Shown here: one piece after another, positions 15,437 through 31,742 of the stretch | How positions within the stretch are numbered: the first letter of the stretch is position 1 | Layout: each line of letters opens with the position of its first letter | The notes under the pieces: generated by a model | What the model was told of the DNA's origin: nothing | The model's input: the letters and a program-made list of their open reading frames with translations, nothing else | Database searches by the model: none | Assembly (NCBI GenBank): GCA_002839675.1 | Contig: PGYM01000001.1 | Span: 858,683-922,682, forward strand | DNA: 64,000 nucleotides | Source of the DNA: Methanomicrobiales archaeon HGW-Methanomicrobiales-1 | GTDB taxonomy: Archaea; Halobacteriota; Methanomicrobia; Methanomicrobiales; Methanospirillaceae | Direction: 5' to 3' | Position numbers and translations under genes: made by a program

Positions 15437-16285
15437 TTACGCTCCGTCGTTTGTCCTGATGGTTGAAAATATATACGCTTTTAAGTTCCGGTATTTGTCA
15501 AAATTGTTATTATCGGTAATAAATCCAAAACTATACCAATGGCGCATGGTTACCATGGTTTTTTTTGTATAGGCTAAGGGATAGTATGCGGTACCTTTTG
15601 CCATCGTGACATCGTAGAATGAAATCCTGGTGTTTCCGCTTGTGAGAAATGCATAATTTCCCACATACTTTGACGCATACCCGGTCAGATCAGGATAATT
15701 ATATTCAAACTGCGCTTTGCACCATTCCAGATCCTGGTTAACCAATACCATTCCATTAAGGCCATCAGAGAAATCTGCTGAAAATGCTACCAGTTTTATC
15801 CTGCCATCGGCGCTCGTAAACGTGACAATCCGCCGTTGTTTCTTTACATTATTATCTTCGTAAAAATTGAACGGCCCGATTAATTTTGTCTCATTCTGGT
15901 AGCATACCTTATAGATCGTGGAATCAGTATCGAGATAATTTGTACAATAATAGGGGATGTACGTTGCAGTTGTTACATTCCATGCTGATGGATAATCAAG
16001 ACTGAAATCATTATCAGAATAATGTAAGAAATCAATCCTGGTGACATCGGTTGGATCTGCTTTTGGAAGGGGTGTCTTTGTTGGTATGGGGGATTTGGTT
16101 ATTACCTGAATGGGTGTTGTTTGGGGAATTGCCGAAGAATTATTGATTGCCGCAAGAGTAGTCGTTGGGAAAACCGGAGTGGGTGTCATTGAGACAACCG
16201 GAGGATCCGGCTGGCTCATGCATCCGGTTGCAAAAAGGATCCCCAAAAAAAGAACAAGGAGAACTATTGCTGAAAAATTTTTCAT
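15437..16285 (-). CDS. Predicted lipoprotein, function unknown
   Basis: A 282-residue exported protein. The N-terminus KNFSAIVLLVLFLGILFATG ends in a lipobox-like ATGC with Cys22, so lipid anchoring outside the cytoplasmic membrane is likely. A Thr/Pro-rich linker (about residues 30-80) leads to a globular domain beginning RIDFLHYSDNDFSLDYPSAW, which resembles PsbP-like or other small-molecule-binding folds seen in methanogen lipoproteins. No catalytic motif is visible. Two cysteines (YYCTNY and YKVCYQNE) may form a disulfide. It is monocistronic; the space to the next gene (16286-16489) is AT-rich and empty of genes. Confidence 0.7.
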   Translation of the reverse strand: MKNFSAIVLLVLFLGILFATGCMSQPDPPVVSMTPTPVFPTTTLAAINNSSAIPQTTPIQVITKSPIPTKTPLPKADPTDVTRIDFLHYSDNDFSLDYPSAWNVTTATYIPYYCTNYLDTDSTIYKVCYQNETKLIGPFNFYEDNNVKKQRRIVTFTSADGRIKLVAFSADFSDGLNGMVLVNQDLEWCKAQFEYNYPDLTGYASKYVGNYAFLTSGNTRISFYDVTMAKGTAYYPLAYTKKTMVTMRHWYSFGFITDNNNFDKYRNLKAYIFSTIRTNDGA

Positions 16286-17713: not shown

Positions 17714-17819
17714 TTTTTTTGGATCATTACCGCGTTTTTTTCCCGGTATAAAAACAGGATTGATAAATCCCTGATGTACATATATAGTACCAGAAAGAGT
17801 ATATGCCGTCCTTATAAAC

Positions 17820-17827: not shown

Positions 17828-17893
17828 TCTTAAGTACTGCCGCGTGAAAATCAAAAAAAATCTGATAATATATCGTGCGAGGTAAAAAATTAC

Positions 17894-20800
17894 ATGAATA
17901 AGAGTGATGCTGAAGCTTTGTTGCGCCAGGGCATCGAACTCTATGACCTTGGCAAATTCCAGGAAGCCATTGTCATGTTTGATCGGGGACTTGCGCTGTT
18001 TCCCAAACTTGCAAAAGCTCATTACTTCAAAGGAATTGCCCTGTATGACCTGGGTCAATTCGAAGATGCAGTTGCATCGTATGATCTGGCCCTGGGCATA
18101 GAACCCGGAGATCCCAATGCATGGTATAACAAGGCCGCAACGCTGGCGCAGATTGGCAGGAATGAAGAAGCCTTAGACGCCTGCGAACAACTTCTCTCCA
18201 TCCGGTTTGACAATACTGAAGCCTGGATCTTAAAGGGAATTGCCTTATACGAACTGGGCCGGTTCAAAGAAGCGATAAGTGCCTACGATCATGCGCTCTC
18301 CCTGGACCCGACGCAAGCGAAGGTATATTATAATAAAGGAATTGCCCTTGGCGATCTCGGCCGGCATCACGAGGCAATTGTCGCTTATGATAAAGCGATT
18401 GAACTCGTTCCCGGGTATGCCCGGGCGTTTTATAACCGCGGTATATCCTTTTATGAAATTGGAAAATATGATGAAGCACTGGCGGCATTTGAAAAGGTCA
18501 ATGAGCTCGATCCCTCTGATATCTGGGTCTGGTATTACCGCAGTTTTATTTTAGCAAAACAGGAGCGCTATGAAGAAGCAGCTCAGTCAGCGGCAAAATT
18601 CCTTGAACATGAGCCCGATCATGCCGATATCTGGGCCATAAAAGGGATATCTCTCTTAAAATCCGGGAAATTTAACGATGCCGTCTCGGCCCTCGACCAG
18701 GCGCTTTCACTCAACCCCAAAGTAGCAGATGTCTGGTATCACAAGGGACTTGCTCATAACCAGCTCCAGCAATACCATGATGCACTCAATGCTTTCGATA
18801 AATCAGCAGAACTCAGCCCTGCACATGCCCAGACCTACTATAACCGGGGTATTGCCTTTGCGTACATTAACGAGTATGATGAAGCAGTGCAGGATTTTGA
18901 CCGGACCCTGTCTTTTGATCAATCGAATGCCGATGCCTATTATTTAAAAGGCATTTCCTGCATCAACTTAAGCCGGTATGATGAAGCCCTGGATTCTTTC
19001 AATCATGCGTTAAAGATAAAAGAAGATCATGCTGTATCGTACTATTATCGCGGCGTTGCACTGACCCGGCTGGGCAGGTACAAAGACGCACTCGAATCTT
19101 TTGATGATGCACAGGCTCTCGATCCTGCGTGTGCACCGGCATTATACCAAAAAGGCCTGTCATATGCCCATCTCGGTCGTTTTGCCGAAGCAGTAACCGC
19201 TTATGATCTTGCCCTGCAGATTCGTCCGGCATATGCGGATGCAATATATCACAAAGGATTCGCTCTTGCAAAACTGGGAAGAAATATCGAGGCAATACAG
19301 GAATTTGACCGGACCATTGCAGAACAACCGCATAATCCCCAGGCATATCACCAGAAAGGCCTCCTTCTTGCAAAACTCGGGAAATACGAAGATGCCGTGG
19401 GCGCATACCTGCAGAGTATCGAATTAAAACCTGCCTATGCACAGGCATTCTATGATATGGGTCTTGCCTGTGCAAGGCTCGACCAGTCACAAAAAGCCAT
19501 TGAAGCGTTTGAAAACGCTATTGCAATCAATCCGAATTATGTAAATGCGCATTACAACCGTGGACTTGCTCTTGCAAGCCTCGGGCAGTACAATGAGGCT
19601 TTCGATGCCTTTGACCGGGCTGTCGAGATCGATCCGTCCCACACGCTGGCACTCTACCAGCGGGGCATCATGCTTATGCAGCTGGTGCGCTATGATGAAG
19701 CGATCGATGCATTTGACAGCGTCCTTGTCCTGTCCCCGCAGAATGCCGGGGCATTATATGAAAAAGCAATGGCTCTTGTGCATCTCGACCGGCTGGAAGA
19801 GGCCGTTCATGCATTCGATGAAGCGCTGGAACAGAATCCCTCCCTGGTCAATGCATGGTTCAATAAAGCAATTGCTCTTGCAACGCTCGGGAAACTGGAT
19901 GACGCCGTTGCCGCATTCGATAAAGTAATTGTCTTAAACCCGAAACATACCGAAGCAGCGGTCCGCAAGGGAATAGCGCTGGTCAATCTTAACCGGTTTG
20001 GCGAAGCAATCGTTCTTTTTAACCGTTCTCTTGAAGACAACCCGCGGGACATCTGGGCATGGTGTTACAAAGGTGTAGCCCTGATATCCTTAAACCGGTA
20101 TGATGAGGCGATACGGGCATTCGATAAGGCACTGGAGATCGACAACCGGTTTTCCCATGCGTATTTCGAGCGGGGGAATGCATTCCTCTTTACCAACCAG
20201 TTACCTGAAGCAATACGATCCTATGACCTTGCACTGGAGATCGATCCGGAAAATCATGAAATACTCTCCCAGAAAGGCCATGCACTCATAAAAAACGGAC
20301 AATTTGAAGAAGCCATAACAACCTTTAGTCTCGTCATTGCACATGACCCTCAAAATATTACTGCACTTGATGAAAAAGCCCAGGCGCTTTTCCATATCGG
20401 AGAATATGGAAAGGCGGTCCAGGCATTCGAAGATGTTATAGAAATTAATCCAGCGTATCCCAATGCACAATATTACCGGGGAAAATCACTCGTACAGATC
20501 AACCGGTTTAATGATGCGGTTGCCGCATTTGACCAGGTACTTGCCCTCTCTCCCCGGAATGCAGATGCCGCTTATGAGAAGGGCTCAGCTCTCATGCATC
20601 TCCGGCAGTTTGAAGATGCAGATATTTCATTTAACTATGCTCTCGAACAGGATCCAGGCCTTGTTAGTGCCTGGCTCAAAAAAGGTGTAACGCTATCTCA
20701 TCTCGGATTAGAAGAAAAATCCGTTGAAGCGTTTGAACGGGCGATTGCCCTTAACCCCCAACTCACTGAAGCAACCGTAAAAAAAGGCATAGCACTGGTC

Positions 20801-23800
20801 AATCTGTCCCGGTTTTCTGATGCAATTGTGATACTGAACCAGGCCCTGGAAGACGATGCAGGAAATGTTCAGGCATGGTATTATTCCGGCCTTGCCTTTG
20901 CAGCACTGGGACAGACTGAAAAGGCCATTAAGGCTTTTGACCGGGTGCTGGAGCTCAACAGGCAGTGTGCCCCTGCATGGTATGAACGGGGAAGAGCACT
21001 TGCCCGCATGGGTAAACACCTTGAATCCGTGCTCTCCTATGATAAGGCACTTGAACTTGCTCCGGATGATCCCGAGACCCTGTATCATAAAGGACTGGCA
21101 CTTGCCCAGCGCGAACGGTATGATGATGCGATAAAGGCATTTGAACGCGTGATCATACTGGAACCAGAAAATGGTCATGCATATTACTACCTGGGAGTCT
21201 CCCTGGCCGGCCGGGAACGTTTTGATGAAGCCGTCAGGGCTTTTGACCTGGCACTTTCGCTCGATCCTTCCAATGCCCAGGCCTATTATTTCAAGGGTAT
21301 CGCGCTCATCCAGTCTGAACGATATAGCGATGCAATAAACACCTTTGAACAGGCGATTGAGCTGGATTCGGACAATTCCCAGTCTTATCATTATCTTGGG
21401 ATCGCCTATCTCCAGTCAAAACAATACGAAAAGGCATTAAAGGTTCTTACGTCTGCAACTGACATGGACCCCTCAATTTCGGACGGGTTCATGTACCAGG
21501 GAATCGCACTTGCGCATCTCTCCCGCCATGAAGAAGCGGTTATATGCCTTGACAAAAGTCTGGCAGCAAATCCCTCATTAATGGAGGCATTGATCTACCG
21601 GGCGGGATCCTTAATCCAGCTCAAACGGTACGCAGAAGCGATTGAAACCGGTGAGCGGATCCTTTCGCTCAACCCGACACTGGTCGATACCTGGCTGCAA
21701 ATTGGTGATGCAAACGTCAGCCTGGATAAAAATCCAGAGGCATTGATTGCATTTACAAAAGCCCTTGAAATTAATCCAAATCTTTCCGATGGCTGGGTGA
21801 AAAAAGGGCATGTCCTGTATGACATGGGAAAAATCCCGGAAGCAATTGTTGCCTACACCCGCGGACTGGACATAAATCCGTCACTACAGGATATCTGGAT
21901 CTTAAAAGGGGATGCCTTAAATGAACTCGGCAAAACCCTGGATGCAATTTCTGCCTATGCAAAAGCAGTAAAGATCGATCCCGGGCTGGTGGATGGCTGG
22001 GTAAAAAGTGGCAAGGCATATTACGAACTGGGAAGGTACCAGGACGCTATCGATGCATTTGATAATGCGATTGCATTGAACCAGCGGTGCATCGACGCAT
22101 TCCAGTATAAGGGAATGTCCTTAGAAAAAATCAACCGTGTCGAGGAGTGTATCCAGGTATTCGAAGTCCTCCTCGAGATTGATCCTGCCAACTTCGATGC
22201 CCAGTACCATAAGGGACTTGCTCTCTCAAAACTCGGGGAACACCGGGATGCAATTGTTGCTTTTGACAAGACGATTGCACTCAAACCATCAGCCCAGGTC
22301 TGGTATAATAAAGGGCAATCATTAACAGAAATCGGTAAGTACCAGGAAGCAGTTGATGCGTTCACACACGCCCTGGAGATGGAATCCGGGTATAACGAAG
22401 TTTATTATTATCTTGGTTACTGCTACCTAAAACTGGGTAAATATACTGAATCAATCGCATCCTTTGACCGGAATCTTGAGCATGATCCGAGTAATGCAAA
22501 AGGGCATTTCAACCGGGGTATCGCGCTCCAGAAACTTGACCGGGATACCGAAGCTCTCGAATCTTTTGATAAAGCCCTCATCTCTGATCCGGAAAATGCA
22601 CTCGCTTTTTATCACAAGGGCCAGTCCTATGCAAACCTGGAGATGTTTAACGAGGCGGTTTTCTCATTCGATAAAACCCTCCATCTCAAACCGAAATACA
22701 CCGATGCCCGGATGAAAAAGGGACTTGCCCTGTATCACCTGGGCAAACTGCGTGAATCCATCAAGGATTTTGATCGCACCATCCATGACAATCCCCGGAA
22801 TTCCCAGGCATATTATCATAAAGGCCGTGCATTATCGGATCTCGGGAAATTTATAGAAGCCAATGAATCGTACGACCGGGCACTTGATCTGAACCCGGCG
22901 TTTTGTGAAGCCTATCTCCATAAAGGGCTCGCACTCCTGGAACTATCCCAGTTTGATGATGCAATCTCATCGTTTGACCAGGCTCTTGAAATCGATTCCA
23001 ATCTTGAGGCGGCACATTATAACCGGGGGTATGCACTTGCAAAAACCGGCAGGCATAAGGAAGCGATTACTGCCTTTGACCGCTCTCTCTCGTTGATGCC
23101 CAGCGATGTATCTGCAGCATACCAAAAGGGCCTGTCCCTGTACGCGATTGGCCTCCACCGGGATGCACTCGACTCCTTTGACCGTACGCTGGAACTAAAA
23201 CCCCAATATGCCGATGCTGCTTTTTACAAATCGCTTGCATTGCATGACCTGGGGCGCAATGAAGATTCGGTAGTTGCTGCGGATCGGGCAATAGAGATTA
23301 ATCCGGAATTTTCCCGGGCCTGGTACTTAAAAGGTGTATCCCACCTGGATCTTGAACAATACGACAAGGCAGTTGGCGCATTTGACCGGACAATCGAGCT
23401 GGATAATACCAATGCCCAGGCATATTTCGACAAGGGACTTGCTCTAATTCACCTGAAAAATCCTGAAAAAGCAATCGAATCGTTCGATAAGGTACTTGAC
23501 CTGATTCCCGGATATGCCCCGGCATTTTATCAAAAAGGCATTGCGCTTAACGCGATTGGTATGTTTGAAGAAGCGGTTCTCTCGTTCAATATCGCCATTG
23601 AAATAGAACCTGATAATGCAGATGCACTCTACCAGAAGGGACTGGCTCTAACCAGCCTGGAGAATTACCCTGATGCGATTATTGTGTTTGATGCGGCTCA
23701 CGAAATTGAACCGAAACGAGCAGATATCATATACAAAAAAGGGCTTTCCTATGCTTCCTTAGTTCAGCATGAAGATGCAGTATCCGCCTTTGCCCTGGCA

Positions 23801-26800
23801 CTTGAACTGGATCCCGGATATAATGATGCCTTGTATCACAAAGGGCTCTCACTTGCGGAACTGGGGAAATTTGCCGATGCGATTGACGCTCTGTCAAAGG
23901 CACTTGAGACCAGTCCGAAGATAGCCAATGCATGGTTGATCAAAGGATTTTGTCTCGCTGCTGAGAAACGTTACCAGGAAGCTATCCTTTCCTATGACAG
24001 TGCGCTCGAGATCGATTCGAACAGTGCCCATTCATGGTTTTATAAAGGACGTGCCCAGCTCAACCTTGATGCCCTGACTGATGCAGCAGCATCCTTTGAC
24101 CGGGCCCTGGCAAATCAGCCCGCATTCGGAGAAGCCTTCTACTACAAAGGCATCGCATTGCATCGCCTGGGTAATCTGGACGATGCGGTTGCAGCTTTTG
24201 AACAGGCAAATAACCTGATGCCCGATTTCGAACCGGGGTATCTCCAGAAAGGCAGGGCACTGTCTGCTCTCGCGCGATACCAGGAAGCTGTTGATGCCTT
24301 TGCCCGGGTTATTACGGCCGATCCCAAAGATATTGCTGCGCTTTACGGCCAGGCCCGGGCATTCGATAAACTGGGGATATACGATAAAGCAATCCTCTTA
24401 TATGGCCGGGTCACCCGCCTTGATCCCGCATGTGAACGGGCATTTTTATACAAGGGTATGGCGCAGGCTAACCTGCACCATGATGAAGATGCCGTGGAAT
24501 CTTTTGACCGCACCCTTGAGATCAATGCAGTTAATGGTGATGCATTAAGCGGTAAAGGCAGAGCACTCGTCGCACTCCGGAAATACGAAACGGCAGTGGA
24601 ATCCTTTGATGCGTTCCTTGCAATCACCCCTGGCACGATCGATATCCTTTATGAAAAAGGACTGGCCTTAACCAAGTTAAAAAAGGCAGAGCCTGCTCTT
24701 GAGGTGTTCAACCAGTGCATTGCGCTCGGGCTTGATACGGCAAGAGTCCATGCAGAAAAAGGATTTGTTCTCTATGAACTGGGAAATTACCCTGAAGCCA
24801 TCCTTTCATTTGACCGGGCTTTGGCGCAGGATAGTCATGACACCCCGTCGTACCTGGCAAAAGGGCTGGCCCTTGCACAGACCGGGCGACATGAAGATGC
24901 AATTGCTGCGTTTGATGCAGTTCTTCTCATCGATCCCGAGAACGGGCAGGCACACCGGGGCAGGGGGGTAGCACTCGTTAAACTCAGGAGGTATGAAGAT
25001 GCAATCATATCCCTTGATCATGCCCTGGATTATGACAAGGCTAATCCCGATATCCTCACGTGCAAGGGATATTCCCTTTACCGGCTGAAACGGTTCAAGG
25101 AATCCGTTGAGGCACTGGGCAAATCACTCAAACTGAGATCCCAGGATGTAAAAACCCTGTTCTTCCGGGCTAAAGCCTATATGCACCTCGAACGGTGGGA
25201 AGATGCAATCTCTCACTTTGAAAAAGTGCTGGCTATAGATCCAAAGGATACGGCGGCATGGTATTACAAGGGTCTCGGATATACCCGGATGGTCCTGTTG
25301 GATGATGCATTACACGCGTTTGATAATGCACTAGTCAATGATGAGTCCTGTGCTGTTGCATGGTTTGAAAAAGCAGAGACCCTTCGCAGGAGTGAACGAT
25401 TTGAAGAATCCCTTGCAGCGTACGATCGGACGCTGGAACTCGATTCTCATCATCAGAATGCAGCTTATCACAAAGGACTGGCACTTTTCATTCTCGGGCG
25501 GAATGATGAAGCTATCGAAGCCTTTGATCATGCTCTGGCCATCGGTGTTGCGAATGCCCGGATCCAGTTCAGTCGCGGACATGCGCTCCTGGTTGCAGGA
25601 CGTTATACGGATGCGCTGAGTTCATTGGAACGTTCGATTGAACTGGCACCCGGTGATGCAGCTACCTGGTATGACAAAGGACAGGTACTGGCATTGCTGG
25701 AAAATTATAAGGGTGCAATCGAAGCCTTTGAAAAGACCCTGGAACTGGATCCAAAGGATGCTCATGCATCGTTTGGCAAAGGCCAGGCACTCTTTTTCCT
25801 TGGACAGGATGAAGATGCAATCACGGCCTTTGACCTGACCTTATCGCTGGACTCCGCTTTCGCTGATGCTGCATATGCCAGAGGAGTTGCCCTCGGCCGT
25901 CTGGGGAATTATCCCAAGGCAATCAAATCATTTGATTATACACTCGAATATGTTCCTGAACATGCAAAGGCGCACTACCAGAAAGGACTCGCACTGAATG
26001 CATCAGGGAAATATGAAAAAGCAATCCGTGAATTCAAGGCCGCAATAACCCATGATCCTTGCCTCTATGATGCCATCTTCCAGTCAGGTCTATCCTATGC
26101 GCAACTGGGTAAACATGAAAATGCCCTGCAGGTATTTGACAAGATGCTGGAGTTAACGCCGGAAGATGCAATGGTTATGTACCAGCGTGCGCTTGCCTTA
26201 ACAAAACTTCACCGGTTTAATGACGCGCTTATTCCGATCGAATCATCACTGGATCGCGAAAATAACCGGGCGGATGTATGGATTCTCAAAGGCAGCACCT
26301 TGTATGAAAGTGAACGGTACGGGGAATCCTTAGAAGCATTTGACCGGGCTCTTGCGTTAGAACCGAAAAACCCCATTGCATGGTACCGTAAAGGCAAATC
26401 CTATCTCGAACTTGAACAGACTCGAGACGCAATTCACTGTTTTGAACAGGTGCTGAATGGCGACCCGGCATGTGCCCCGGCCTGGTTCAGGAAAGGGAGC
26501 GCACATCTCTCGATAGGGGAGTTTGAGCCTGCTGTCGATGCTCTTACCCGTGCGCTTGATATCAAACCCGTATCGGCCAATGGATGGTATGATCGCGGTA
26601 TTGCACTCTTTGAACTCGGTCGATTCGAAGATGCCGTTGCATCGTATGATCAGGCCCTTGGTATTAATCCAAAATATGCCAATGCCTGTTATGATAAGGG
26701 AATTGCCCTGACCCGGCTGGGCCGGGATGCTGATGCAATCAGTACATTTGAACGTGCAACGGGAATTGATCCGCATTTTGCTACCGCATTTTTTGATACC

Positions 26801-29800
26801 GGGTTGGCATACTTCCGTCTTTCCGATTATAAAAAAGCCATTTCAGCCTTTGAAAAAGGTCTTGCAGTCAATGCTTCCTATGCACCGGCCTATTATTACA
26901 AAGGCCTCGCACTCATCCAGATTAAAAAATTAAAAGACGCTATCGTGGCTTTCGATGCAGCAATCAGCCTTGATGGCGGGAACTATGATGTCTGGTATAA
27001 CAAGGGTCTTGCCCTGTCTCAAACCCGGCAATTCGAAAAAGCGGGAGATGCATTTGACAAATCGATCAGTTTTAATTCACACGTATATGATCCCTGGTTC
27101 GAAAAAGGCTGTGCACTCTTCCGGTTATCAAAATATGACGATGCCATTGTAGCCTTTTTGCATGCTCTCTCGCTTGATGACAGCAAACGGGAAGGACACT
27201 ATGCCCTTGGTCGTACGTATGTGGCATTAAGCAGGTACGAAGATTCCCTTCCTTCCTTTAACCGGGCGATTGCATGCGATCCCGGCTTTATAAAAGCGTA
27301 TCGGGCCAAGGGTCTTGCACTCGAAGAACTTGGGCAATATGAAGAAGAGATACCTGCATTGGCAGGAGTGCTCTCGCTCGATCCGGCAGATGCCGGTGCA
27401 TGGTACCATACCGGTTTTGCCTGTGAACGCCTTGGAAACGATGATGATGCAATTGCCGCTTTAGAGAAGGCCAGGGCTGGTGATCCTTACAATATCTCCC
27501 TCCTCTTGTTGGAGGGAAGAATATTAGGACGGCTGGAAAAATATGAAGATGCCATCCATATTCTTGACATAGCACTGGGGCGTGAACCTGATAACGGAGA
27601 GATACTTTTTGAAAAAGGAATTGCTCTCTCCCATTTAGAAAGGCATGAAGAATCCACAGAAATCTTTGCATCTGCGGCAGCAAATCTTCCCGGGAAGTTT
27701 GAGCCCCTGTACGAACAGGGCATCTCACTGGTGATTCTTGGCCGTTACCATGAGGCTGAAGTTGCTTTTAATGCCGCCCTCCAGCTCAACGAGACCGATC
27801 CGGATATCTGGATTGAGAAAGGATCCGTGCTCCTGCATCTCAAGCGTTATGAAGAAGCGATTGATGCGTTCACCAATGCCATTTCGTACACCAAGGAATC
27901 GTACCGTGCATTCCTTGAACAGGGTAAGGCATATGCCTTCCTTGGAAAATGGGAAGATGCCATCCCGGCATTTGATCTTGCAATCCAGCTGAAACCTGAA
28001 GATCCGCGTGCCCTGTATGAAAAAGGCCTGGCCCTGTTCAATCTTAAAAAGTTTGCAGAATCGGTCAGGGTTCTTGATGAATCCCTGGCAGTTGATCCTG
28101 ATAATACCCGTGCACTTTATTATCGATCTTCTGCCCTTGCGGAAGCAGGGGATTATGCACAGTCAGCAGAATCCTACCGGCACCTGCTCGCATTTACCCC
28201 GGAGGATCCTGTTGCCTGGCTGGAACTGGGCCTTGTCCTTGCACGGATCAACCGGCACGACGAAGCTCTTGTCGCGTTCGATCGATGCCTGGATATCCAG
28301 CCGGATAATTTTTCAGCAGTGTATAACAAAGCACGCTCTCTGGATTCGCTCAACAGGATCAAAGAAGCAATCACAATGTACAACCAGGCTCTTTCTCTCG
28401 ATCCTGCACACGCAGAGACACACCATTTCAAAGGAATGGCCTTGTATAGTCTCGGCAGGTTTGAAGAAGCAGCAAAAGAACATGATCTGGCACTGGAGAT
28501 CAACCCTGCATTTGGCGAAGCACTCTATGATAAAGGCCGGTCACTTGCTTCCCTTGGCATGTATCGTGAAACGGTAAAAACGTTCGATAAAGCAATCGCC
28601 GTTGAAAAAAATTATGCTCCGGCCTATTATGATAAAGGTCTCGCACTCGCTCATCTTGGGCGGCATGAAGATGCAATAATTGCATTTAACAAGAATATCG
28701 ATCTCGATGCAGGCAATGCCCTGGCATATTACCACAAAGGGGTATCCCTCATAGCTACCGGACGGCAGAATGATGCCATTGATGCATTCGATCGCATGCT
28801 CAGTATCGACCCGCTATCGGTTGACGGGTGGTTGTACCGTGGACGGGCACTGGCAGATCTCGCCCGGTATAATGATGCTATCGAAGCATATGTCAAAACA
28901 TTAGAGATCGATCCTTCCAATCCCGATGCCTGGTACCTGAAAGGCAGCGCATTCTTCGCCCTCCAGGGGTATGATGATGCAATTGAAGCCTTTGCACGGG
29001 CACTGGAGATACGTCCCGAGTATACGCAGGCATTTTTCGATAAGGGGCGTTCTCTTTTCCAGCTGGGCATGTATAAAGAGGCAGTACTATCGTTTGACAA
29101 TGCACTTTCCATTGAACCAAAAAATATCGATGCCCTGTACCAGAAAGGGAGGGCTCTTATCCGGCTCGGGTTATATGAAGATGCTATTGCAGCCTTTGAT
29201 CCGGCCCTGAGGATTCGCCCGACTGCTGCTATGATCTGGACCGGGAAGGGGATCGCCCTTTCCGCGTTATCTAAAGATAAGGAAGCAATCAGTTGCTATA
29301 ACAAGGCATTGGGCATCGATAGCAAAGATGCACGGGCTCATTATAATCTCGGTGTCTCGAATGTCAACATGGGCCGTTACCAGGAAGCTATCCGGAACCT
29401 GGATGCCGCCCTGACATATAAGCCACAGTGTGCTGAAGCCTTCTTCCAGAAAGGAAAGGCACTTTCCGGCCTTTCAATGTTCCACGAGGCAATCAGTGCT
29501 TTTGACAAGGCACTTGCGCAGAAAGGAACATTTGCCGATTCATGGCTCTACCGCGGGATTGCGGAAACGAACCTGGGCAGTTACGATGCAGCACTTGACT
29601 GTTATGATCGTGCGATTGCTATCGATCCTGACTATGCGGCTCCTTACTTATACCGGGGTATTGCCCTGATCCAGTTAAAGCGGTATTCAGAAGCGGTTGA
29701 TGCTTTTGACCGGGCACTGGAATCCCGTCCGGACTATGCCGAAGCCTTATATCACAAAGGGGTTGCCCTGGTACACCAGGAACGTTATGAAGATGCAATC

Positions 29801-30943
29801 GCGCTGTTTGAGAAAGCACTGGCCCTCAATACCCGTTACAGTGAGGCATTCCAGTACAAGGGAATTGCCCTTGCACGCATTTCACGATATAACGATGCAA
29901 TCATTGCATTTGATGCAGCACTTGCCACAAATCCTGATTCCGGAGAGGCACTCTATGAAAAAGGCCGTGCCCAGATTCGTAATGAGAATCTTAAGGAAGC
30001 GATTGCTACCTTCGATCGCTTACTGGCATTAAACCCCGGTTCTGCCGGCGCACTGTATGAAAAGGGCAGGGCATATTTCTCACTGGGTAATTATGAAGAG
30101 GCGATCTCTGCATTTGTGCATGCCATCGAGATCACTCCTACCTGCAGTCCCGCATTCTTCTGGATGGGACGGGCATATGTTGAGCTTGGCGATATGGATG
30201 CTGCCATCACCGCTTACAATCATGCGCTTGAAAATAAACCCCGGTCTGCGGAAATATTTGTTTACCGGGGGATTGCCTATGCAGCACTCGACCAGTACCG
30301 GGATGCAATCCAATCCTATGACCGTGCACTTGAGATCGAGCATTCAGCTGCAACCTTTGTCCACAAAGGAGTGACTCTATCCGAACTGGGTATGACCCGC
30401 GATGCGATAGATGCATTTGACCGGGCACTCGAACTGGATGGGACCCTCGCCGATGCATGGATGGGCAAAGGCAATGCCTTTTACGATTTGGGGAAATTTA
30501 AAGAAGCGCAATCCGCCTATGAACAGGGACTGGTAATTGATCCCGAAAATGTTGTTGGCTGGACCCGTCATGGCATGTCACTTGCCGGTCAGAATATGGA
30601 TGAAGCAGCCCTGAACTCATATGATCGGGCAATTTCTTTGGATCCCACTTTTTCCATTGCCTACTTTACCAAAGGCAGTGCAATGGATGCACTGGGACGG
30701 TACGAGGAGGCGGTGGTGTCATACCGTGAAATGATCACCCTCCAGCCGGAATTTGTGGATGCATGGATCCATAAAGGACGATCCTTAAAGGAACTCGAAA
30801 AATACCAGGATGCCCTGACGGATTTCAAACATGCCGTGGAACTGGATGGATCCCGTAAAGAGATCTGGAAAGATATTGGCGGGATACTCGATACGATCGG
30901 CAAGCATGAAGAAGCCCAGATCTGTTATGAAAAATCCCGGTAA
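17894..30943 (+). CDS. Giant all-tetratricopeptide-repeat protein (4349 residues, about 128 TPRs)
   Basis: An uninterrupted 13,050-base frame. After five residues the chain is continuous TPR of the consensus A-x2-W/Y-Y-x-K-G-x-A-L-x2-L-G-x-Y-x2-A-I-x2-F-D-x-A-L-x-L-x-P. Taking 34 residues per unit, 5 + 127x34 - 2 + 28 = 4349: 127 complete repeats, a last one lacking its final six residues, and a net loss of two residues. The two short units are visible at IALKPSAQVWYNKG and at ALEIEHSAATFVHKG. There is no signal peptide, membrane helix, enzymatic domain or low-complexity linker, so it should be a cytoplasmic superhelical scaffold. A block near 19730 is duplicated exactly 816 bases (eight repeats) later. 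The lack of stops or frameshifts over 13 kb shows it is maintained. Its partners are unknown. Confidence 0.93.
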   Translation: MNKSDAEALLRQGIELYDLGKFQEAIVMFDRGLALFPKLAKAHYFKGIALYDLGQFEDAVASYDLALGIEPGDPNAWYNKAATLAQIGRNEEALDACEQLLSIRFDNTEAWILKGIALYELGRFKEAISAYDHALSLDPTQAKVYYNKGIALGDLGRHHEAIVAYDKAIELVPGYARAFYNRGISFYEIGKYDEALAAFEKVNELDPSDIWVWYYRSFILAKQERYEEAAQSAAKFLEHEPDHADIWAIKGISLLKSGKFNDAVSALDQALSLNPKVADVWYHKGLAHNQLQQYHDALNAFDKSAELSPAHAQTYYNRGIAFAYINEYDEAVQDFDRTLSFDQSNADAYYLKGISCINLSRYDEALDSFNHALKIKEDHAVSYYYRGVALTRLGRYKDALESFDDAQALDPACAPALYQKGLSYAHLGRFAEAVTAYDLALQIRPAYADAIYHKGFALAKLGRNIEAIQEFDRTIAEQPHNPQAYHQKGLLLAKLGKYEDAVGAYLQSIELKPAYAQAFYDMGLACARLDQSQKAIEAFENAIAINPNYVNAHYNRGLALASLGQYNEAFDAFDRAVEIDPSHTLALYQRGIMLMQLVRYDEAIDAFDSVLVLSPQNAGALYEKAMALVHLDRLEEAVHAFDEALEQNPSLVNAWFNKAIALATLGKLDDAVAAFDKVIVLNPKHTEAAVRKGIALVNLNRFGEAIVLFNRSLEDNPRDIWAWCYKGVALISLNRYDEAIRAFDKALEIDNRFSHAYFERGNAFLFTNQLPEAIRSYDLALEIDPENHEILSQKGHALIKNGQFEEAITTFSLVIAHDPQNITALDEKAQALFHIGEYGKAVQAFEDVIEINPAYPNAQYYRGKSLVQINRFNDAVAAFDQVLALSPRNADAAYEKGSALMHLRQFEDADISFNYALEQDPGLVSAWLKKGVTLSHLGLEEKSVEAFERAIALNPQLTEATVKKGIALVNLSRFSDAIVILNQALEDDAGNVQAWYYSGLAFAALGQTEKAIKAFDRVLELNRQCAPAWYERGRALARMGKHLESVLSYDKALELAPDDPETLYHKGLALAQRERYDDAIKAFERVIILEPENGHAYYYLGVSLAGRERFDEAVRAFDLALSLDPSNAQAYYFKGIALIQSERYSDAINTFEQAIELDSDNSQSYHYLGIAYLQSKQYEKALKVLTSATDMDPSISDGFMYQGIALAHLSRHEEAVICLDKSLAANPSLMEALIYRAGSLIQLKRYAEAIETGERILSLNPTLVDTWLQIGDANVSLDKNPEALIAFTKALEINPNLSDGWVKKGHVLYDMGKIPEAIVAYTRGLDINPSLQDIWILKGDALNELGKTLDAISAYAKAVKIDPGLVDGWVKSGKAYYELGRYQDAIDAFDNAIALNQRCIDAFQYKGMSLEKINRVEECIQVFEVLLEIDPANFDAQYHKGLALSKLGEHRDAIVAFDKTIALKPSAQVWYNKGQSLTEIGKYQEAVDAFTHALEMESGYNEVYYYLGYCYLKLGKYTESIASFDRNLEHDPSNAKGHFNRGIALQKLDRDTEALESFDKALISDPENALAFYHKGQSYANLEMFNEAVFSFDKTLHLKPKYTDARMKKGLALYHLGKLRESIKDFDRTIHDNPRNSQAYYHKGRALSDLGKFIEANESYDRALDLNPAFCEAYLHKGLALLELSQFDDAISSFDQALEIDSNLEAAHYNRGYALAKTGRHKEAITAFDRSLSLMPSDVSAAYQKGLSLYAIGLHRDALDSFDRTLELKPQYADAAFYKSLALHDLGRNEDSVVAADRAIEINPEFSRAWYLKGVSHLDLEQYDKAVGAFDRTIELDNTNAQAYFDKGLALIHLKNPEKAIESFDKVLDLIPGYAPAFYQKGIALNAIGMFEEAVLSFNIAIEIEPDNADALYQKGLALTSLENYPDAIIVFDAAHEIEPKRADIIYKKGLSYASLVQHEDAVSAFALALELDPGYNDALYHKGLSLAELGKFADAIDALSKALETSPKIANAWLIKGFCLAAEKRYQEAILSYDSALEIDSNSAHSWFYKGRAQLNLDALTDAAASFDRALANQPAFGEAFYYKGIALHRLGNLDDAVAAFEQANNLMPDFEPGYLQKGRALSALARYQEAVDAFARVITADPKDIAALYGQARAFDKLGIYDKAILLYGRVTRLDPACERAFLYKGMAQANLHHDEDAVESFDRTLEINAVNGDALSGKGRALVALRKYETAVESFDAFLAITPGTIDILYEKGLALTKLKKAEPALEVFNQCIALGLDTARVHAEKGFVLYELGNYPEAILSFDRALAQDSHDTPSYLAKGLALAQTGRHEDAIAAFDAVLLIDPENGQAHRGRGVALVKLRRYEDAIISLDHALDYDKANPDILTCKGYSLYRLKRFKESVEALGKSLKLRSQDVKTLFFRAKAYMHLERWEDAISHFEKVLAIDPKDTAAWYYKGLGYTRMVLLDDALHAFDNALVNDESCAVAWFEKAETLRRSERFEESLAAYDRTLELDSHHQNAAYHKGLALFILGRNDEAIEAFDHALAIGVANARIQFSRGHALLVAGRYTDALSSLERSIELAPGDAATWYDKGQVLALLENYKGAIEAFEKTLELDPKDAHASFGKGQALFFLGQDEDAITAFDLTLSLDSAFADAAYARGVALGRLGNYPKAIKSFDYTLEYVPEHAKAHYQKGLALNASGKYEKAIREFKAAITHDPCLYDAIFQSGLSYAQLGKHENALQVFDKMLELTPEDAMVMYQRALALTKLHRFNDALIPIESSLDRENNRADVWILKGSTLYESERYGESLEAFDRALALEPKNPIAWYRKGKSYLELEQTRDAIHCFEQVLNGDPACAPAWFRKGSAHLSIGEFEPAVDALTRALDIKPVSANGWYDRGIALFELGRFEDAVASYDQALGINPKYANACYDKGIALTRLGRDADAISTFERATGIDPHFATAFFDTGLAYFRLSDYKKAISAFEKGLAVNASYAPAYYYKGLALIQIKKLKDAIVAFDAAISLDGGNYDVWYNKGLALSQTRQFEKAGDAFDKSISFNSHVYDPWFEKGCALFRLSKYDDAIVAFLHALSLDDSKREGHYALGRTYVALSRYEDSLPSFNRAIACDPGFIKAYRAKGLALEELGQYEEEIPALAGVLSLDPADAGAWYHTGFACERLGNDDDAIAALEKARAGDPYNISLLLLEGRILGRLEKYEDAIHILDIALGREPDNGEILFEKGIALSHLERHEESTEIFASAAANLPGKFEPLYEQGISLVILGRYHEAEVAFNAALQLNETDPDIWIEKGSVLLHLKRYEEAIDAFTNAISYTKESYRAFLEQGKAYAFLGKWEDAIPAFDLAIQLKPEDPRALYEKGLALFNLKKFAESVRVLDESLAVDPDNTRALYYRSSALAEAGDYAQSAESYRHLLAFTPEDPVAWLELGLVLARINRHDEALVAFDRCLDIQPDNFSAVYNKARSLDSLNRIKEAITMYNQALSLDPAHAETHHFKGMALYSLGRFEEAAKEHDLALEINPAFGEALYDKGRSLASLGMYRETVKTFDKAIAVEKNYAPAYYDKGLALAHLGRHEDAIIAFNKNIDLDAGNALAYYHKGVSLIATGRQNDAIDAFDRMLSIDPLSVDGWLYRGRALADLARYNDAIEAYVKTLEIDPSNPDAWYLKGSAFFALQGYDDAIEAFARALEIRPEYTQAFFDKGRSLFQLGMYKEAVLSFDNALSIEPKNIDALYQKGRALIRLGLYEDAIAAFDPALRIRPTAAMIWTGKGIALSALSKDKEAISCYNKALGIDSKDARAHYNLGVSNVNMGRYQEAIRNLDAALTYKPQCAEAFFQKGKALSGLSMFHEAISAFDKALAQKGTFADSWLYRGIAETNLGSYDAALDCYDRAIAIDPDYAAPYLYRGIALIQLKRYSEAVDAFDRALESRPDYAEALYHKGVALVHQERYEDAIALFEKALALNTRYSEAFQYKGIALARISRYNDAIIAFDAALATNPDSGEALYEKGRAQIRNENLKEAIATFDRLLALNPGSAGALYEKGRAYFSLGNYEEAISAFVHAIEITPTCSPAFFWMGRAYVELGDMDAAITAYNHALENKPRSAEIFVYRGIAYAALDQYRDAIQSYDRALEIEHSAATFVHKGVTLSELGMTRDAIDAFDRALELDGTLADAWMGKGNAFYDLGKFKEAQSAYEQGLVIDPENVVGWTRHGMSLAGQNMDEAALNSYDRAISLDPTFSIAYFTKGSAMDALGRYEEAVVSYREMITLQPEFVDAWIHKGRSLKELEKYQDALTDFKHAVELDGSRKEIWKDIGGILDTIGKHEEAQICYEKSR

Positions 30944-31034: not shown

Positions 31035-31682
31035 TTAGTTCTTTTTCCTCACTTCAAGGAACCAGACAATCGCAACAATGGCAAAAAAGGAGATAATGCC
31101 GATGGTAAAAGCGTTTTTGATATACCAGGGGGTAGCTGCATCGCGGCTCTGTTCTGCAATCCGTTTGTTTGCAGCAAGATTCGGATAATCGGGACTGAGT
31201 GACTGGACCTTGTCAAATGCCGAGATGGCTTCATCATATTTTTTCATGCCGGCAAGGGAATAGCCTTTATTGAACCATGCTTCAGGATTCGAAGAATCAA
31301 GCGCAATGGCTTTTTCATAAGCTCCCAGTTCATCGTCATACCTGCCGAGATTATAGAGAATATACCCCCGGTTAATCCAGCCCTGTACATATTCCGGGTT
31401 AAGGGCCAGTGCCTTATCCGATGCAATAAGTGCCTCGCTGAACCGCTGGGCCCGGTTTAAGGCATCTGCCTTGCCATTCCAGGCTTCATAATAGTCCGGG
31501 GCAAGCGCAGTTGCATGATCATAGGCACTGATGGCTTCGGAATAATTCCTGCTTTTCATCAGTGCATTTCCCTGCGCATACCCGTCAGCAGCATCAGGAG
31601 AATATGCCAGCACCGGCATGATGCAAAGAACCAGGAAAAGAACGGTTAAAAATCCCGCGAAGAATATTTTTTTTGCGTACAT
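31035..31682 (-). CDS. Membrane-anchored TPR protein
   Basis: A 215-residue protein from the ATG at 31682; a start at 31715 is also in frame but lies in a possible box A (ATTTATGG). A signal-type helix (KKIFFAGFLTVLFLVLCIMP, residues 4-23) is followed by four to five TPRs (about 30-160), for example WINRGYILYNLGRYDDELGA. A C-terminal transmembrane helix (IKNAFTIGIISFFAIVAIVW) and a basic EVRKKN tail complete it. The TPRs should therefore face outside. It is convergent with the giant TPR gene and uses the same repeat consensus, so it may share ancestry with it. It may also be co-transcribed with the tRNA methyltransferase gene. Confidence 0.85.
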   Translation of the reverse strand: MYAKKIFFAGFLTVLFLVLCIMPVLAYSPDAADGYAQGNALMKSRNYSEAISAYDHATALAPDYYEAWNGKADALNRAQRFSEALIASDKALALNPEYVQGWINRGYILYNLGRYDDELGAYEKAIALDSSNPEAWFNKGYSLAGMKKYDEAISAFDKVQSLSPDYPNLAANKRIAEQSRDAATPWYIKNAFTIGIISFFAIVAIVWFLEVRKKN

Positions 31683-31742
31683 GACAACCGGATCATATCT
31701 TGTGCTGATGACCATAAATTATTCTTCAAAACCGGATATGTT

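Follow-up and report, generated by a model that had tools for sequence, protein, structure and literature searches.

A 128-repeat TPR protein of methanogenic archaea whose length appears to evolve almost always by eight repeats, one predicted superhelical turn

The locus studied here lies in a window of 64,000 nucleotides, by which we mean the whole stretch of DNA that was analysed, from a 2.47-Mb genome in five contigs (G000). It raises the question of what an archaeon does with a single reading frame built entirely of TPR units, and of how such a protein changes in length. An ATG opens the frame at 17894-30943 (+), which runs for 4,349 codons without a stop, and its product (hereafter the giant) has 4,349 residues, a mass of 485 kDa and an acidic pI of 5.1. 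When a position-specific matrix made from the protein's own units was chained along it by dynamic programming, 128 contiguous units were obtained. Successive units start 34 residues apart in 125 cases and 33 apart in two (following units 43 and 122), and the array closes with a unit of 28. The first-pass annotation had arrived at 128 TPRs by arithmetic (5 + 127x34 - 2 + 28), and the two counts agree exactly. With the own-unit matrix every complete unit scored at least 9.8 bits, compared with a best score anywhere below 0 in 20 shuffles of the protein. The top Pfam families were TPR or TPR-like, with 2121 bits for TPR_1; no enzyme or catalytic domain was found among the 25 best-scoring families, and the units run to the last residue, which bears out the earlier description of a protein that is TPR from end to end without another domain. 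It had also been described as free of signal and membrane helices, and none was apparent from its start (MNKSDAEALL) or from a hydropathy scan, in which the maximum over 19 residues was 1.3, so that by sequence it is probably cytoplasmic.

The features of the gene and of its upstream region are as follows.

17812..17819, + strand: TATA-like element TTATAAAC, upstream of the giant gene; read directly, with a putative promoter function.
17879..17883, + strand: ribosome-binding site GAGGT, 10 bases before the ATG; read directly.
17894..30943, + strand: giant TPR gene, 4,349 aa, 128 units; from the frame, the own-unit matrix, Pfam, AlphaFold models of both ends and orthologues under purifying selection.
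17894..17908, + strand: five lead residues MNKSD, followed by a strongly conserved unit 1; the N-terminus is conserved across orthologues.
22193..22291, + strand: unit 43, one of the two units of 33 residues; own-unit matrix.
30248..30346, + strand: unit 122, the other 33-residue unit; own-unit matrix, kept in most orthologues.
30857..30940, + strand: unit 128, the last, with 28 residues and a conserved C-terminal end; own-unit matrix and orthologues.

Among 127 units, the signature residues were G8 in 114, A20 in 112, P32 in 91, F24 in 83 and A27 in 71. Position 4 was W, L, Y or F in most units, and positions 7 (K/R) and 11 (L) depart from the classical L7/Y11. With tandem 34-residue units and these signature residues, the giant is a TPR protein. 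On average, two units shared 30% of their amino acids and 45% of their nucleotides, no exact DNA repeat in the gene exceeded 19 bp, and Tandem Repeats Finder reported no array in it; the repeats are thus old and diverged, and assembly collapse is no concern. The GC content at third codon positions was 0.466 in the giant and 0.55-0.62 in the adjoining genes.

The TTATAAA upstream of the gene is kept in close sisters and in G040 and G014, and the GAGGT site is kept in the giant's own clade and in several other orthologues. The locus itself is conserved, with an aminotransferase gene upstream and, downstream, a convergent gene for a 226-aa TPR protein, a methyltransferase gene and a DnaJ-DnaK cluster; a terminator scan 3' of the giant gene found nothing. 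The 226-aa protein (31035-31715, - strand) has a hydrophobic leader and a C-terminal hydrophobic helix. In both genera in which the giant occurs, many of the orthologous loci have this protein alongside it, and it could possibly be a membrane partner. A 282-aa protein with a lipobox-like leader (LFATGCMSQ) is encoded at 15437-16285 (-); it had no match in Pfam or NCBIfam and no counterpart in the orthologous loci fetched. An assignment of function from operon context was considered and rejected, as the giant gene is a solitary one, preceded by a promoter-like region of its own, among genes that are metabolic, housekeeping or convergent.

Orthologues are widespread in Methanoregula. Among 39 genomes of this genus, the N-terminal eight units were found in 31, the C-terminal end in 32 and either of them in 33, and one or other end was carried by 22 of the 23 genomes with at least 90% completeness and at most 5% contamination. 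The giant was also present in five of eight genomes of a second genus of the family. The search covered 232 genomes of the order and, outside these two genera, gave at the same threshold a single match, to a TPR protein of 37% identity. Records of the gene that carry a name belong to Methanoregula and Methanomicrobiales assemblies. In the 94%-complete congener G048 neither end was found, possibly a true loss. Six single-contig genomes (G011, G018, G021, G040, G053 and G178) carry an intact frame; it has frame breaks in G016, also a single contig, and likewise in G043. Between orthologue pairs for which dS could be estimated, dN/dS was about 0.08-0.16 over the whole length. These sequence comparisons confirm that the giant is under purifying selection and represents an orthologous family at one conserved locus, with the similar-length orthologues in other methanogens for which the first-pass annotation had proposed a search.

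AlphaFold models of the two ends, one of units 1-20 and one of the last 20 units (mean pLDDT 95.3 and 95.6, 40 helices each, pTM 0.65), predict continuous helix pairs forming a right-handed superhelix, and model residues 40-311 and 6-277 superpose on the eight-repeat chains 8chy and 9qhb of designed consensus TPRs (CTPR) at 1.8 A over 272 residues. The CTPR superhelix has been reported to have seven to eight repeats a turn and a pitch of ~72 A (PMC4191447), eight repeats making one full turn of 7.2 nm (PMC12060649). The giant is accordingly expected to form a right-handed TPR superhelix, probably with about eight repeats per turn. With 16 turns x 7.2 nm taken from the published CTPR geometry, the rod would have about 15-16 turns, a width of ~4 nm and a length of about 110 nm, in line with the earlier estimate of the order of 100 nm.

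How the length of this predicted rod changes can be seen when orthologues are aligned unit by unit, for which ordinary affine gaps, which favour no multiple, were used. The total was 112 units in G047, G053 and G176, and in G002 and G179, which are cut by a contig end and were completed by alignment; 120 in G003, G010, G011, G014, G019, G040 and G052, and in G043 with its frame breaks; 128 in G000, G018, G021, G054 and G178, and in G020, which has an assembly gap; 136 in G001, G015, G022 and G042; and 144 in G006 and G008. Totals outside multiples of eight were confined to two clades, one with 134, 151 and 159 units and the other with 121 and 121; G016 belongs with the former and has 159 units after allowing for its frame breaks. 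Relatives differ by blocks of 8, 16 or 24 units, or of 7 or 15 in the exceptional clades; changes of a single unit are few and are tolerated in two clades. Parsimony on a tree of the conserved ends required 19 length changes, 14 of which were multiples of eight, and each of the other five (15, -7, -1, -1 and -9) was within one of such a multiple. A uniform spread of step sizes would make this pattern very unlikely, with the reservation that the 19 events are not fully independent, because an existing 816-bp tandem duplication lets homologous recombination give further changes of ±8 units even if phase is not selected. As judged from the alignments, the length of the giant appears to evolve almost always by eight repeats, that is, by one predicted superhelical turn. 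The parts of the gene concerned are the following.

19541..20356, + strand: units 17-24, first of the two copies left by an old tandem duplication of eight units; identity to units 25-32, at lag eight, is 44%.
20357..21172, + strand: units 25-32, second copy of the same duplication; lag-eight comparison.
25148..28309, + strand: units 72-102, where most orthologue gains and losses of 8, 16 and 24 units fall; unit-level alignments.
25760..25761, + strand: approximate point, between units 77 and 78, of the extra units of the closest sisters (+8 in G001, G015 and G022; +16 in G006 and G008).

Comparison of units within each array showed that the inserted blocks are tandem copies. In eight-unit windows, the identity at lag eight was 97% in G005, 88% in G041, 74% in G001, 73% in G042, 72% in G054, 60% in G003, 56% in G010 and, for the old duplication listed above, 44%, so that copies of very different age have a common period. 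Several other clades are without one eight-unit block in the region of units 17-24. Separate sites of eight-unit duplication are the window's own units 17-32, units 38-53 in G003 and G011, and units 44-59 in G010. Clear duplications in the giant had a period of 8, 16 or 24 only, plus 15 in one clade; the best windows at lags other than these reached an identity of about 0.45 or less, and no clear duplication of one to five units was found in the orthologues. A general eight-unit super-repeat in the sequence was also considered and rejected, since the mean identity at lags 24-56 equalled the baseline.

Non-orthologous TPR arrays from this and related genomes served as controls under a similar windowed measure, and their strongest duplications were mostly at lags 1-5. 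The control L077 (G015:C3:1-12000), a 3,032-codon TPR frame of 88 units with recent single-unit duplications at 90% identity, belongs to this short-lag majority and comes from a congener whose genome also carries an orthologous giant. In another family of the order, a 6,719-codon frame of 196 TPR units (L058 and L059; G025:C6, ~153.8-173.9 kb) has single-unit duplications, at lag one, close to its N-terminus; it was rejected as an orthologue of the giant, from which its unit alignment and ends differ. A 396-codon array of 11 units in the window's own genome (L002; G000:C4, ~500-1700) likewise has its strongest duplication at lag one; it adjoins the very end of a contig and is perhaps cut by the assembly.

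A period close to the predicted turn was also seen in surface charge, which is evidence separate from the length changes. The net charge per unit, averaged over orthologues, had its strongest period at 8.25 units (p ~0.01 over periods 2.5 to 20), and this period is in phase along the array, with phases of -2.78, 3.10 (equal to -3.18) and -3.01 rad in its three thirds. With duplicated regions masked, p was 0.025. The signal is carried mainly by helix B, the outer, convex side, and not by the concave helix-A positions; folded on the 8.25-unit period, the mean charge per unit is -2.6 on one side and climbs to -0.1 close to the opposite one. No such period was present in the control arrays of 88 (L077) and 196 (G025) units. 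We regard the charge signal as a moderate one, in which the averaged orthologues have common ancestry and 8.25 is not exactly eight. Conservation of the outer face near 8.1-8.4 units is only suggestive: of six clades, two had a clear signal and four a weak one, with band p between 0.006 and 0.47 depending on the clade, and it is therefore not relied on. For the conservation of all residues, an eight-unit period was absent in near and far comparisons with the window's own protein, present in clade X and weak in other clades. Hydropathy, consensus match, G8 and Y17 had no period near eight, and P32 (period 7.9, band p 0.016) and W4 were marginal among many tests. Positions on the helix-A side are partly conserved, and their conservation along the giant has a period of ~13.4 units (p 0.002-0.015).

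Taken together, length changes and charge would be explained if the giant were a single-chain, cytoplasmic, one-sided rod or scaffold that is lengthened by whole turns with its rotational phase kept, a reading that we hold to be evenly balanced between right and wrong. The outer surface of such a rod would be uneven around its circumference, strongly acidic on one side and nearly neutral on the opposite, and since its two outer sides differ in charge, one of them may lie along an extended partner, which could be a membrane, a filament, a nucleic acid or a second rod. An insertion or deletion other than a full turn would rotate the downstream part away from this partner, and the sole changes to survive would then be those of roughly eight repeats, one turn, or of several turns, while the total length would be rather free. 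The data show the array, its conservation under purifying selection, the steps of eight repeats, the 8.25-unit charge period and the predicted fold; a binding face marked by the charge pattern, selection for phase and a place in the cytoplasm are what we infer from them. The wider proposal, for which our confidence falls a little short of even, is that of a conserved family of giant single-chain superhelical rods in which selection on the angular position of an outer face confines length evolution to whole turns, perhaps as part of a novel internal scaffold in a group of sheathless methanogens. Methanoregula has been described as dimorphic and without the sheath proteins of its relatives (PMC11576556), and a link of the giant to cell shape is only a lead. 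Where the first-pass annotation had suggested a scaffold or a spring, a one-sided rod or scaffold is now favoured, from which a spring is not distinguished.

The main rival to a phase-locked rod is a mutational ratchet, in which a chance 816-bp duplication was followed by unequal recombination of ±8 units, with length nearly neutral and without selection for phase. Most events fall at units 72-102, a region with tandem eight-unit copies that differ in age, and the recent copies of G005, 93-99% identical in DNA, would recombine readily, as this explanation expects. However, the eight-unit duplications at separate sites would each have to be founded independently by an event of equal size, and one- to five-unit duplications, the usual sizes in other TPR arrays, are not clearly seen. 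Furthermore, the 8.25-unit charge period persists when duplicated regions are masked, and identity at baseline for lags 24-56 indicates that no residual eight-unit homology extends over the rest of the array. We therefore consider this explanation unlikely, although it deserves to be taken seriously.

Selection might instead act on the inner face, if the giant were a multivalent hub or chaperone in which each eight-repeat turn forms one concave ligand groove and whole sites are added or removed. TPR grooves usually bind peptides on their concave face, the helix-A-side positions of the giant are partly conserved, and a DnaK-DnaJ cluster lies nearby. This is a doubtful alternative, because the eight-unit charge signal is on convex helix B rather than at concave helix-A positions and the chaperone genes are convergent housekeeping neighbours. 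More improbable again is a molecular ruler, a role that had also been suggested for this locus, in which total length would be the selected trait and set the size of another structure. The predicted rod-like fold of definable length and the conservation of both ends would suit such a role, but the number of units varies from 112 to 159 among close relatives, with differences of 8 to 24 between sister species, which disfavours a strict ruler. An assembly artefact in the repeats, which the first-pass annotation had named as grounds for withdrawing its reading, or a frame not translated as one protein, can practically be dismissed, for the frame breaks of G016 and G043 are outweighed by intact frames in six single-contig genomes, the lack of long exact repeats and a dN/dS of ~0.1 over the whole length. 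The one-sided rod remains our preferred reading.

TPR proteins are usually said to have 2-20 repeats (PMC7279152), compared with the intact protein of 112-159 repeats that is under strong selection in these archaea. A survey of proteins of at least 5,000 aa makes no mention of TPR (PMC11573180), a search for Methanoregula together with TPR gave one joint match, an unrelated metagenome clustering paper, and none of the open-access papers searched was found to describe a natural, selected array of 112-159 TPRs whose length evolves by whole turns. The closest structural likeness is to the designed CTPR superhelices (CTPR8, CTPR20; PDB 2FO7, 2AVP, 8CHY, 9QHB), which have the same 34-residue units and continuous right-handed superhelix; in contrast to CTPR20, the giant is natural, has 128 diverged units (30% identity), is ~6x longer, and has conserved ends and a periodic surface charge. 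The TPR domain of O-GlcNAc transferase (1W3B, 6EOU, 7NTF) is a natural TPR superhelix with a high structural score, but it has ~12 repeats plus an enzyme domain, whereas the giant has ~10x more repeats without one. MamA and PilF/PilW, further structural matches, are short TPR proteins of only a few repeats; for the neighbouring 226-aa TPR protein, MamA also came out as the best NCBIfam match, far below the cut-off. The arrays of G025 (196 units) and L077 (88) are very long, of the same repeat family and from the same order, yet the first is non-orthologous by its ends and unit alignment, the second is at another locus, and both have lag-one duplications and no 8.25-unit period. If the preferred reading is true, the whole-turn length changes and the matching charge period would show, on sequence evidence alone, that natural selection can see the rotational phase of a protein superhelix. 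The TPR repeat and its superhelix are known; giant selected arrays with whole-turn length evolution would be new.
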